Assembly (NCBI GenBank): GCA_022827625.1
Contig: JAJEIE010000019.1
Span: forward strand, 124,001 to 188,000
From: Candidatus Poribacteria bacterium
GTDB lineage: Bacteria; Poribacteria; WGA-4E; WGA-3G
DNA: 64,000 bases
Reading direction: 5' to 3'
Shown here: piece by piece, positions 15,188 through 25,308 of the stretch
Layout: each line of letters starts with the position of its first letter
Position numbering within the stretch: the stretch's first letter is position 1
Notes under the pieces: generated by a model
What the model was told of the DNA's origin: nothing
Database searches by the model: none
The model's input: the letters and a program-made list of their open reading frames with translations, nothing else
Made by a program: the position numbers and the translations under genes

Positions 15188-15617
15188 GAAAAGAGAAAGG
15201 AGAGGCTGGAAGAATGGAAGGGGGTGGAAGACTGGAAGGTATGTAACCGCTGGAAACGTTTGGGGCAGTTTCCGCGCCAGGGTTTTGTAGCTTGATACAA
15301 TATTCGCCTCTTTGGAAAGTCTTATGATATATTATACTCTTTTTACTAACTGATGTCAAGTTAAAAATTGAATGCTTCTGTCTCGTTTGATGTATGATGG
15401 GAATGTTGCATTCAAGGCTCTTTTTCTGTTATACTTAACATAGTCATATTCAATTATTTGCCCCATCCGATAAAGACAGATTCCTATTTCCATCCATCAG
15501 GAAAGGAGAACGGTATGGACTTTTAAACTCCCTACAGATTTTTCGTTGTCTGAAGATATTGCCTCTCAATACTCGGTATCTATTTTGGAAAGTTGAAGTT
15601 TCATAGTTTTGATAATA
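15188..15617. other. Intergenic region: purine-rich repeat, promoter and three-codon ORF
   Basis: About 430 bases between bioD and the first DUF3800 gene. Near 15206-15240 TGGAAGA/TGGAAGG recurs four times. A promoter lies at 15406-15435. At 15515-15526 a strong ribosome-binding site (AAAGGAGA, 15502-15509) precedes ATG-GAC-TTT-TAA, a complete three-codon frame. No longer gene is visible. Confidence 0.6.
15406..15435 (+). promoter_or_regulatory. Sigma70 promoter upstream of the first DUF3800 gene
   Basis: TTGCAT (15406-15411), 18-base spacer, TATACT (15430-15435). The transcript would carry a leader of about 175 bases that includes the three-codon ORF at 15515. Confidence 0.5.
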
Positions 15618-16244
15618 GTGTCTGAATCAATCACAGCAAAACCAGAACGAATAGACCTCTATATCGACGAATCTGGACAACACACGGGTGGTCAATCGTT
15701 TATTGTCGCTGGGATAGCGGTAGGAGACAGTGATAAATTTCGACAGTTTTGTACATCCCTTGAGAGAACCTCGCGTAAAGGTCTCGCTAAGTGGGGGAAG
15801 GCAAATAAAGACAACCGTTTGATTTATCTACGTACCATCGTTTCAAATGATCGCTTTCGTGACATCCTTTTGTTTTCCTACGTTTTCCAAGAGACGAAAG
15901 ATTACGTTGGGGCAACTATCCGAGCGATTGACTTAGCGGTTGCCAGTTTGCACCCTTCTACGTCTCCTGTTCACGTTTATATTGATGGTTTGGTTAAAAC
16001 CCAATACAAGGTGTACAAAAATCGGTTAAGGAAACTTGGTTGCCGCGTCGAAAAAGTACGAGGTAGAAAAGATGAGAGCGAACCACTTATAAGGTTAGCG
16101 GATGCAGTGGCTGGTGCTACGCGGGATTTGTTAGAGTACGGAGACAATGAACTTAAAGAGCTTTTTTCCCTTGCAGTAAAACGTGACATTCTCGTTGGAT
16201 GGATAAATCCTGTTTCGGGACCTCACCCTACGGAGTATATGTAA
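15618..16244 (+). CDS. DUF3800 family protein (predicted RNase H-like)
   Basis: About 208 residues. DUF3800 hallmarks: DLYIDESGQ near the N-terminus, VHVYIDG mid-protein, and RLADAVAGATRD near the C-terminus, giving the spaced acidic residues expected of an RNase H-like active site. The molecular function of DUF3800 proteins is not established to my knowledge, but they recur beside restriction-modification and other defence genes and on mobile elements. The frame opens with TTG 15609; GTG 15618 is my choice, neither having a good ribosome-binding site. It sits upstream of hsdM behind its own promoter. Confidence 0.8.
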   Translation: MSESITAKPERIDLYIDESGQHTGGQSFIVAGIAVGDSDKFRQFCTSLERTSRKGLAKWGKANKDNRLIYLRTIVSNDRFRDILLFSYVFQETKDYVGATIRAIDLAVASLHPSTSPVHVYIDGLVKTQYKVYKNRLRKLGCRVEKVRGRKDESEPLIRLADAVAGATRDLLEYGDNELKELFSLAVKRDILVGWINPVSGPHPTEYM

Positions 16245-22323: not shown

Positions 22324-22326
22324 ACG

Positions 22327-25308
22327 ATGCGGACGTATACAGAAACAGATTTTGAAGACCACATCGAACAGCACCTAAATTCATCGGACTACCAGTCGTT
22401 ACAACCTGCCGCTTATGATAGAAACCTCTGTCTCATTCCCAATGAGACGCTGCAATTTATTCAGAATACACAACCCAAAGTGTATCAGAGACTGGAACGC
22501 CAGTACGGTGCCGACACACCCGCTAACCTCCTCAACCGTGTGAGTAGAGAGATTACGCGGCGTGGGGTGCTGGACGTGCTGCGGAAAGGGGTTAAGGATC
22601 GGGGTTGTGATTTTAAACTGACCTACTTCCAACCCTCAAGTGGCATGAACCCCGACCATCAAAAACTTTACGCCCAGAACCGATTCTCCCTCATTCGACA
22701 ACTGCATTATTCGCAACGGAACGAGAAATCGCTTGATATGACCCTGTTCCTCAACGGTTTGCCACTGGTGACGATGGAACTGAAGAACAGCCTCACCGGT
22801 CAGGTTGTCGCCGATGCGGAGAAACAGTACCGGACAGATCGGGATTCACGGGAGCCGTTGTTCCGATTCAAGCGGTGTCTGGTGCACTTTGCGGTGGGCA
22901 ACGAGAAGGTTTCTATGACAACCCGGTTACAGGGTGGTACGACGCGGTTCTTTCCGTTTAACAAGGACATCGAAAATCCTGTAAATCCCGACGGGCACAA
23001 GACTGCCTACCTGTGGGAGGATGTCTTGCATCCGGATAACCTCATGGCACTCATCGACAACTTTATCCATGAGCAGGAGACCACAGAAAAGGTTTATGAC
23101 TCCAACATTAACGCCGTGAAAGATGTGAAACACCGCGTACTCGTTTTCCCGCGATACCATCAGCTGGATGTGATTCGTCAATTGAAAGCGGCTATCGTCG
23201 CCGAGGGCGTTGGGCATAACTACCTGATTCAACACACCACCGGGAGCGGGAAATCGAACTCCATCGCATGGTTGGCACACCTGCTGACGCATCTGTATCG
23301 GTCGGAGGACGATACCCATCGTATCTTTGACTCCATCATTGTCGTGACGGATCGAGTCGTACTTGATAGACAACTTCAAGAAACGATCAAGCAGGTAGAA
23401 CAAGTTGAAGGTGTAGTTTATGCCGTTGATAAGAACTCAGCGCAGCTCAGAGATTATCTCGAATCCGGCAAAAGCGTCATCATCTCAACAATTCAGAAGT
23501 TCAGTGTGATTGCTGAGGAGATCGGCAAACTCAAAAGCAGGACCTTTGCTGTGATTATCGACGAAGCACACTCCTCACAGAGCGGTGAGGCTGCAAAAGA
23601 CCTCAGAGTCTCGCTTTCAAAAGGAGTTGAGGAAGACATAGAAGATGATGACCCCGACGAAGTAGAATCAGATATAGATGCCAAAATCCTTGAACAGATG
23701 GAACAGCGTAGAATGCAGGAGCATATCTCCTATTTCGGTTTTAGCGGCACGCCGAAAAACAAGACGTTAGAACTCTTTGGACGGAAGGACGCAGAAGGGA
23801 CATTTGTCCCGTTCCACGTCTATTCCATGCGCCAGAGTATCAGCGAAGGGTTTACACTGGACGTGCTACAGAACTATACTACCTTTAAGAGATATTTCCA
23901 ACTCGTCAAGCGTGTTTCAGAGGATAAAGCGTATGAGAAGGCGCGGACGCTCCGGACACTCACCAATTATGTTGATCTACAGCACTACAGTATTGAGACC
24001 AAGACCCGAATTATGTTGGAACACTTCACCGAACACACGGCAAAAACGATAGAAGGGAAGGGGCGGGCGATGCTGGTTACGCCGTCTCGACGCCACTGCG
24101 TCAGATACAAATTGGAGTTCGACAAGCAGATGCGGGAGATAGACCTGCCCTACGACTGTCTGGTAGCGTTCAGCGATACGGTACACGACACCGACAACGG
24201 GGTGGATTACACGGAAAACGGGATGAATTCCTTGCCACCCGGGACTTCCATTGCGGACAGTTTTAAGAGTCCTGAATACCGGATTCTGATTGTGGCGAAT
24301 AAGTTTCAGACGGGTTTCGATGAGCCGCTCCTGCAGACGATGTACGTGGATAAGCGGTTGGATGGGCTGCAGTGTGTCCAGACCTTGAGCCGTCTGAACC
24401 GCGTCGCCACCGGTAAGACGGATACGCTGGTCCTCGACTTTGTGAATGAACCCGATCAGATACAAGAGGCGTTTCAGCAATACTATCAGACGACAGGGCT
24501 TGCGGAGGAGACCGACCCGAATCGGTTGTATGACTTACAGAGCCAATTGGACGGTTTTGATCTCTATGATGAGAAGGTCATTGATCAATTCTGTCGGACC
24601 TTTTACGAATCTGATCGACCGGATGCGTCTCTACAGGGCATCCTTGATAGCGTCGTCGAGAAATGGTTGGAACTTGAAGACATAAATGAGCCGGAGGCGT
24701 TTCGCTCTACCTTGCAGAGTTATATTCGCCTCTATGGATACATTTCGCAGTTGATTACCTTCACCGATGTAACGTTGGAAAAGTTGTATATCTTCGGTCG
24801 TAGTTTAAACAAGAAACTCCCGAAACGGGAACACTCAGATTTACAGGGTGTCCTTGAGGCTGTGGACTTGGACTCATTTCGTATCCAGAAAACATACGAC
24901 AGTCTACAACTCTCCCTTGAAGCGGAGGATAGCGAAGTTCCAGGAATTGGCAGCGATGTCGCTACTGTCAGGGACCCGGAGCAGGATTTCCTCTCTAATA
25001 TCATTGACACGCTGAACAGTGTCCATCATACAGATTTTACTGCAGAGGATAAGGTTGACCTTGCGAGCATTCACCAAAAAGTGCACGAAAACGAGGAACT
25101 TCGGCAGGTGATTGAGGGAGATAATACGGAGACCAACAAACGCTACAAGTTTGAGCAGGTGATTGATGACATTTTATTCGGTTTCATTGATAGTAAACTT
25201 GACCTCTATAATAAATTAACGCAACCGGAAATCAAGGCAGATCTCATGCATCAACTCTATCAAGCCTATCTTGACCAGCCGTCCGCTGCTGCGCGAAGGG
25301 ACGATTAG
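22327..25308 (+). CDS. hsdR: Type I restriction endonuclease/translocase subunit HsdR
   Basis: A 993-residue protein. The N-terminal PD-(D/E)xK nuclease includes LPLVTMELKN (about 140-150). The superfamily 2 motor follows: Walker A HTTGSGKSNS (about 301), VVTDRVVLDRQLQ (motif Ia), the DEAH box VIIDEAHSSQSGE (about 410), GFSGTP (motif III), and FQTGFDEP with QTLSRLNR (motifs V and VI). A helical C-terminal domain binds the methylase core. It translocates and cleaves unmethylated DNA. Full length for the family; no frameshift seen, so the system may be active. Confidence 0.95.
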   Translation: MRTYTETDFEDHIEQHLNSSDYQSLQPAAYDRNLCLIPNETLQFIQNTQPKVYQRLERQYGADTPANLLNRVSREITRRGVLDVLRKGVKDRGCDFKLTYFQPSSGMNPDHQKLYAQNRFSLIRQLHYSQRNEKSLDMTLFLNGLPLVTMELKNSLTGQVVADAEKQYRTDRDSREPLFRFKRCLVHFAVGNEKVSMTTRLQGGTTRFFPFNKDIENPVNPDGHKTAYLWEDVLHPDNLMALIDNFIHEQETTEKVYDSNINAVKDVKHRVLVFPRYHQLDVIRQLKAAIVAEGVGHNYLIQHTTGSGKSNSIAWLAHLLTHLYRSEDDTHRIFDSIIVVTDRVVLDRQLQETIKQVEQVEGVVYAVDKNSAQLRDYLESGKSVIISTIQKFSVIAEEIGKLKSRTFAVIIDEAHSSQSGEAAKDLRVSLSKGVEEDIEDDDPDEVESDIDAKILEQMEQRRMQEHISYFGFSGTPKNKTLELFGRKDAEGTFVPFHVYSMRQSISEGFTLDVLQNYTTFKRYFQLVKRVSEDKAYEKARTLRTLTNYVDLQHYSIETKTRIMLEHFTEHTAKTIEGKGRAMLVTPSRRHCVRYKLEFDKQMREIDLPYDCLVAFSDTVHDTDNGVDYTENGMNSLPPGTSIADSFKSPEYRILIVANKFQTGFDEPLLQTMYVDKRLDGLQCVQTLSRLNRVATGKTDTLVLDFVNEPDQIQEAFQQYYQTTGLAEETDPNRLYDLQSQLDGFDLYDEKVIDQFCRTFYESDRPDASLQGILDSVVEKWLELEDINEPEAFRSTLQSYIRLYGYISQLITFTDVTLEKLYIFGRSLNKKLPKREHSDLQGVLEAVDLDSFRIQKTYDSLQLSLEAEDSEVPGIGSDVATVRDPEQDFLSNIIDTLNSVHHTDFTAEDKVDLASIHQKVHENEELRQVIEGDNTETNKRYKFEQVIDDILFGFIDSKLDLYNKLTQPEIKADLMHQLYQAYLDQPSAAARRDD

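Follow-up and report, generated by a model that had tools for sequence, protein, structure and literature searches.

A type I restriction locus with two DUF3800 genes

The window analysed here is a 64,000-nt stretch of contig C26 (JAJEIE010000019.1) of G000, a 5.0-Mb genome of a Candidatus Poribacteria bacterium, and it contains a type I restriction-modification (R-M) locus accompanied by two DUF3800 genes, each facing a small RNA at its 3' end. The locus comprises hsdM (16717-18462, plus strand; N6_Mtase E=2e-64, HsdM_N E=3e-19, PADLOC MTase_I E=1e-244), hsdS (20977-22323, plus strand; Methylase_S E=1e-18, PADLOC Specificity_I E=2e-117) and hsdR (22327-25308, plus strand; HSDR_N E=6e-16, SWI2_SNF2 E=7e-26). 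HsdM, HsdS and HsdR are full length with intact domains; judged by this domain content, they form an intact type I R-M operon, which has cargo both within it and upstream. An initial annotation had placed two KYPNEW genes, a DUF3800 gene, a promoter-hairpin-terminator unit and a gene for an internally duplicated protein in 2.5 kb between hsdM and hsdS, and another DUF3800 gene upstream of hsdM. Each of these features was confirmed in its place, the distance between hsdM and hsdS being 2,514 bp. A tandem RNA, a protease gene remnant and the pattern of a convergent RNA at the 3' end of each DUF3800 gene had been missed.

DUF3800 is a protein family whose function is not established and which recurs in CRISPR and other defence loci. 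Both genes of the window, DUF3800a (15621-16244, plus strand; start GTG 15618 or TTG 15609) and DUF3800b (19341-19985, plus strand), score above the Pfam gathering threshold of PF12686, with E values of 1e-8 and 4e-13, respectively. The RNase H-like acidic motifs that had been claimed for the family are present in both copies, namely YxDES/DDSG, a mid D and the D of LADA or LSDF. The AlphaFold model of DUF3800a is confident (pLDDT 84) and has RNase H2/HII as its best Foldseek PDB matches (E=4e-6); that of DUF3800b is weaker (pLDDT 69), with RNase HII as the sole significant match (E=8e-4). A search of the PDB for a solved DUF3800 structure gave no credible sequence match. Based on these models, DUF3800 is predicted to be an RNase-H-fold protein and is probably a nuclease. 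The ratio of nonsynonymous to synonymous substitution rates (dN/dS) was about 0.12-0.16 for the two genes (about 0.12-0.15 for DUF3800b; 0.20/1.22 for DUF3800a against G005), indicating that both copies are under purifying selection.

Between DUF3800a and hsdM, two tandem 99-nt units, termed REP, run convergently with DUF3800a. Unit 1 (16421-16519, minus strand; R1 match E=3e-27) and unit 2 (16286-16384, minus strand; R1 match E=2e-26) are 94% identical and follow a promoter (TTGAAT-18-TATACT, 9/12; 16547-16576, minus strand) for which TTGAC...TATACT stands at the same place in most relatives. A terminator-like hairpin at the REP 3' end (16246-16283, minus strand), found in the folded 302-nt transcript and resembled by hairpins after REP in relatives, sits in the 41 bp that separate REP from the DUF3800a stop codon. 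The likely hsdM promoter (TTGATT-16-TATTAT with TG; 16646-16673, plus strand), assigned by consensus match only, is divergent from REP. An alignment of 49 REP units gave a structure of five helices, in which 98% of cells are paired and double changes occur at 15/27 pairs. There are 131 double-change cells compared with 39±8 in column shuffles, and the covariation signal was lost when the partners were slid by 1-3 columns. G-U cells outnumber A-C cells by 149:10, which places the RNA on the minus strand of the window. These data indicate that REP is a real, strongly covarying structured RNA. A coding repeat was ruled out by the covariation, the G-U bias and the promoter. REP matched no Rfam 15 family.

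Counts given here and below rest on contigs of metagenome-assembled genomes, with many loci related by descent; REP and KYPNEW were counted in 59 genomes of the family, sR50 and the clade a profile in 85 of the phylum, and all PF12686 genes in 58. REP occurs in 25/59 genomes, with 2 or 3 tandem copies at nearly every locus, and all 20 GTDB contigs bearing it are from Poribacteria. In G022 (L156:8500-9151), two REP arrays with spacings of about 136 and 108 nt lie consecutively behind one DUF3800 gene.

The promoter-hairpin-terminator unit of the initial annotation also proved real (20086-20000, minus strand). It corresponds to sR50, a ~50-nt hairpin RNA with a T-run that is convergent with DUF3800b (20000-20051, minus strand; R2 model and alignment), and its promoter (TTGACT-17-TATAAT, 11/12, with TG; 20058-20086, minus strand) is conserved in relatives. 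The R2 model detected sR50 in 18/85 genomes, that of the window included, in one copy each and in several families. Because most of the homologues in the 17 other genomes have the same promoter, core and T-run, the hairpin is not a product of chance. Single-sequence folding statistics of sR50 were not better than those of shuffles, and no Rfam 15 family matched it. With regard to phage carriage, an exact-pattern search of viral_contigs with three RNA patterns gave no match.

Convergent RNAs of DUF3800 genes in Poribacteria

Each of the 35 DUF3800 genes assigned to clades a-d in Poribacteria (a, 11; b, 3; c, 9; d, 12) has a convergent RNA at its 3' end, and no full-length gene of these clades was seen without one. 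These are not 35 independent events, since the loci share descent and the RNA classes of clades c and d, termed C and D, were found by inspection beside DUF3800 genes. The clade a profile recovered 16 loci, 11 of them essentially full-length, with REP at the 3' end in 16/16; the gap between the REP unit and the stop codon is 1-3 bp in 11 of the 13 loci measured and 41 bp in the window. Clade c, first met in the same profile search, has at the stop codon a convergent ~124-nt class C RNA with a promoter and a terminator. Clade d, which came from the PF12686 genes, has its own convergent ~81-nt class D RNA. Neither class C nor class D matched Rfam 15. Class C is also kept beside PhyH-like, and mostly also glycosidase-like, genes at loci with no adjoining DUF3800 gene (L282, L284, L286 and L287). 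Clade e consists of four DUF3800 genes of about 300-375 aa (L251-L254), with a HyuB-like gene downstream in three of the loci; a conserved stem-rich stretch, CTCTATTCACCAGAGGATTACCGAGTCCTC..., precedes them.

The REP model also finds an RNA beside a different DUF3800 gene, in G073 (E=1.6e-5); its scores for class C, which it aligns at the core, are weak. Thus, at least some of the RNA classes share a core, which reads CCGAA..AC..[SS-GUAU-SS]..hairpin..UAGG and is followed by a terminator hairpin.

In contrast to the DUF3800 genes, the RNAs frequently stand alone. REP is without DUF3800 at 11/27 loci; class C occurs in 40 genomes compared with about 10 having DUF3800c, class D in 35 compared with 12 with DUF3800, and sR50 in 18 compared with 3 having an intact DUF3800b. 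In G038, G023 and G051, DUF3800b has decayed yet sR50 is retained. This asymmetry is expected of a protein that is harmful without its RNA; it is also compatible with an RNA that has a separate function.

DUF3800 had been said to recur in defence loci, and this was seen, together with the RNAs. The typical order in relatives is WYL - DUF3800 - (RNA, on the opposite strand) - Cas10d - Csc2 - Csc1 - Cas3' - Cas6 - Cas4/Cas1, with type I-D assigned by NCBIfam and WYL by Pfam. Each RNA begins within the divergent promoter region of the CRISPR effector operon and extends toward the DUF3800 3' end; at loci lacking DUF3800, it extends toward the WYL 3' end instead. REP or sR50 stands at the head of 15/17 close type I-D loci, the two exceptions being one cut by a contig end and one 54%-identical system of another family; with 7/13 among more divergent loci, the total is 22/30. 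Furthermore, a type I CRISPR effector operon is adjacent to 20/27 REP loci, with G020:C43 as a possible additional one, and an R-M system is adjacent to 3/27, namely those of the window, G040 and G009. An hsd locus is a minority partner of the DUF3800-RNA pairs, found in the window, G038, G040 and G009. In at least 7/12 loci, the clade d gene comes after a type III Mod-like methyltransferase gene or its remnant, and clade c adjoins a gene with a TaqI_C domain (type IIG-like) in G044 and G047 and, by eye, an HsdS-like sequence in G008 and G016; its neighbour is an R-M system at part of the loci only. From these neighbourhoods, DUF3800 with its convergent RNA is a general defence-associated module rather than an hsd-specific one. 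The initial annotation had suggested a cargo tied as a unit to the type I system; this did not hold, as the pairs mainly adjoin type I CRISPR and KYPNEW genes occur in many settings.

A type I CRISPR effector module that appears to be unclassified was also observed (L162:9207-13977; also L153, L154, L158 and L037). It has REP or sR50 at its head and four genes with no NCBIfam match and no Pfam match above the cut-off, followed by I-D-like Cas3', Cas6, a Cas4-Cas1 fusion and, in most cases, an array.

The window locus itself occupies a slot bordered by a MinE-MinD-LarA-nucleotidyltransferase-BioD block on one side and an HflK-like gene on the other, and in relatives this slot holds other defence systems, including CRISPR. 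Its left anchor, which recurs in most relatives, is a BioD-like gene (14456-15187, minus strand; PF13500 E=4e-52). This gene is preceded by a perfect sigma-70 consensus promoter (TTGACA-17-TATAAT, 12/12; 15359-15331, minus strand).

Possible roles of the DUF3800-RNA pairs

The association of DUF3800 with tail-to-tail RNAs in these sponge-symbiont Poribacteria suggests an RNA-controlled nuclease that accompanies immune systems. The reading we favour, with a probability of roughly 45%, is that the RNA restrains an RNase-H-fold DUF3800 nuclease and that the pair guards or backs up the adjoining defence operon. On this reading, two copies of the DUF3800-RNA module would have been acquired by an intact type I R-M operon that sits in a defence slot subject to recombination. 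The structured RNA would bind the DUF3800 protein and keep the nuclease inactive, as toxins are held in check by type III antitoxin RNAs. When the defence system is lost or inhibited, or the short-lived RNA is lost, the nuclease would be released, and the pair would thus guard or back up the operon it accompanies. Extended to an undescribed guard system, in which RNase-H-fold nucleases are checked by dedicated RNAs with a shared core at CRISPR and type I, type III and probably type IIG loci, this proposal is tentative and lies on the unlikely side.

Several observations weigh against such a restraining RNA. The RNA keeps its promoter and structure where DUF3800 is undetected, for example in G040, G046, G051 and G011, and may therefore have another job. 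Class C RNA has a conserved position, flanked by PhyH-like and glycosidase-like genes, whether DUF3800 is present or not, and the four clade e loci have no such convergent RNA downstream of DUF3800. In addition, sR50 is too conserved for covariation to show. Finally, the RNA is downstream of and convergent with the protein gene here, unlike in known type III toxin-antitoxin systems.

In those systems, represented by ToxIN, an RNA restrains an endoribonuclease and ToxI lies upstream of the toxin gene on the same strand (PMC8860590). The likeness consists in a nuclease-like protein paired with an RNA that has its own promoter and terminator, and REP, with 2-3 units, shares the tandem organization of ToxI (PMC8860590), whereas sR50 is single; DUF3800 is an RNase-H-fold protein by prediction and not ToxN. 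PrrC, a nuclease of tRNA anticodons that the R-M enzyme keeps silent (PMC12707154, PMC2610378), resembles the present case in being, as with RloC, encoded within an hsd locus, but DUF3800 is unrelated to PrrC/RloC and has an RNA partner; no PrrC/RloC homologue was found within the window cargo by Pfam or PADLOC. That the cargo is a genetically linked second defence layer, as the initial annotation had supposed, is a reasonable guess, with PrrC in a type IC hsd locus as a precedent (PMC12707154). CreTA, which guards type I CRISPR operons (PMC9458426), is likewise based on an RNA element at such operons, whereas the RNAs described here also occur with no CRISPR in the locus. Since type III toxin-antitoxin systems, PrrC and CreTA each fail on a defining feature, we propose that the pairs may work like them rather than belong to them. 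DUF3800 accessory proteins have been reported at Cas12a2 (V-A2) and VI-F CRISPR loci (PMC10910872, PMC12669027); in contrast, the proteins here are single-domain, have a dedicated RNA and accompany type I-D, another type I-like module and also R-M systems.

A doubtful alternative is that the RNAs act as riboregulators on the defence operon and its WYL regulator, and that DUF3800 serves as an accessory RNase in their processing or turnover. The RNAs begin within the divergent promoter region of Cas operons and are directed toward WYL or DUF3800, the neighbour at the 11 REP loci without DUF3800 is usually a WYL gene, and in G036 and G040 sR50 is antisense inside the 3' end of the WYL open reading frame; type I-D systems are regulated by WYL proteins (PMC10212523). 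However, within the stretches covered no WYL or CRISPR lies near the clade c and d pairs, the window locus has no WYL gene, and it would be left unexplained why the RNAs adjoin the DUF3800 stop codon so strictly. It is unlikely that both modules of the window are hitch-hikers, brought by recombination into a defence hotspot that was formerly a CRISPR locus and playing no part in R-M. Such an origin would agree with the CRISPR systems that occupy the same slot in relatives, with the KYPNEW-associated protease gene cut at the DUF3800b junction and with the truncation or loss of DUF3800 in many relatives, but both DUF3800 genes of the window are intact and under purifying selection, both RNAs and their promoters are conserved, and the arrangement is common to G038. 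An RNA-guided nuclease, comparable to TnpB with its guide RNA, is suggested by the predicted RNase-H fold of the protein and by the cognate RNA beside the 3' end of its gene, and RAGATH-18, first a bioinformatic motif, turned out to be a TnpB guide (PMC11061315); we consider this very improbable and rejected a guide RNA, because the RNAs are conserved up to the terminator with no variable guide stretch at either end, and they are antisense to the gene. Least probable by far are CreA-like CRISPR RNA mimics that let Cascade silence a toxin, as in CreTA, for although the RNAs adjoin type I CRISPR operons, which CreTA guards (PMC9458426), they also stand beside R-M systems with no CRISPR in the locus, and mimicry was rejected because the CRISPR repeats of the loci, e.g. 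CTTGAAAAGAAAAGTATCTCGATTACGAGATTGAAAC, compared by eye, have no likeness to REP or sR50.

RNAs linked to DUF3800 genes as a kind are already known. Weinberg et al. reportedly described the RNA motifs DUF3800-I to -XI in 2017, which are structured RNAs linked to DUF3800 genes like those found here. RF02968 and RF02969 are named among DUF3800 RNA motifs (PMC11701678), and an association of structured RNA with DUF3800 has been cited (PMC10910872). REP, sR50 and classes C and D match no Rfam 15 model, those of DUF3800-I to -XI included; the tandem arrangement of REP and the convergent placement of the RNAs at the stop codon would be further differences. The RNA classes found here appear to be new, as do the tandem form, the position rule and the CRISPR and R-M setting. 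Nearly every such DUF3800 gene of Poribacteria with its own RNA at a fixed position represents a concrete protein-RNA pair, and the position rule could be used to seek partner RNAs of DUF3800 elsewhere. The type I-D loci of Poribacteria gain an RNA component, of which the available part of a recent type I-D review (PMC10212523) makes no mention. If the RNA does restrain the protein, an RNA-based guard would be common to CRISPR and restriction systems.

KYPNEW genes and other cargo

KYPNEW proteins 1 (18710-18937, plus strand) and 2 (18953-19213, plus strand) are encoded by consecutive open reading frames, and copies of the latter are 80-86% identical in 8 genomes. The family occurs in 52/59 genomes, with 1-6 copies each and in many different settings. 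In several loci, KYPNEW genes are followed by a gene for a clan AA aspartyl protease (PF13975 in L034), and the two together look like an apparently uncharacterised two-gene module, which would be broken in the window (18710-19316). A long, near-perfect terminator-like hairpin (19220-19268, plus strand; z=-6.7) lies 3' of KYPNEW 2, and the truncated 5' end of the protease gene (19232-19316, plus strand; protein match to L047, L049 and L050) lies between KYPNEW 2 and DUF3800b. This remnant represents the first ~30 codons, cut near 19316, and DNA homology to the L047, L049 and L050 loci ends near 19316-19326 at a recombination junction with DUF3800b. The earlier statement that all genes look intact thus holds for hsdM, hsdS, hsdR and both DUF3800 genes but not for the protease gene.

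The internally duplicated protein is encoded upstream of hsdS (20406-20936, plus strand) and consists of two ~85-aa repeats, the halves being 57% identical. Its one relative among the fetched loci is a single-unit version in G027 (L154), which adjoins an hsdS fragment. PADLOC gave no match for the small cargo genes.

A conserved co-occurrence of hsdM, DUF3800, KYPNEW and hsdS, proposed as a check in the initial annotation, was not found; KYPNEW occurs in many settings, and DUF3800b is present in 7 genomes and intact in 3. The sister genome G038 shares the order KYPNEW-(protease remnant)-DUF3800b-sR50-hsdS-hsdR, with only the last ~42 codons of DUF3800b retained. The small RNA and hsdS survive there beside the DUF3800b remnant, and hsdR is cut by a contig end. 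A second cargo-bearing hsd operon is present in G011 (L053:5060-16711), where an ATPase-like gene, a KYPNEW gene and an 839-aa open reading frame separate hsdM from hsdS, and embedded cargo is therefore not unique to the window.

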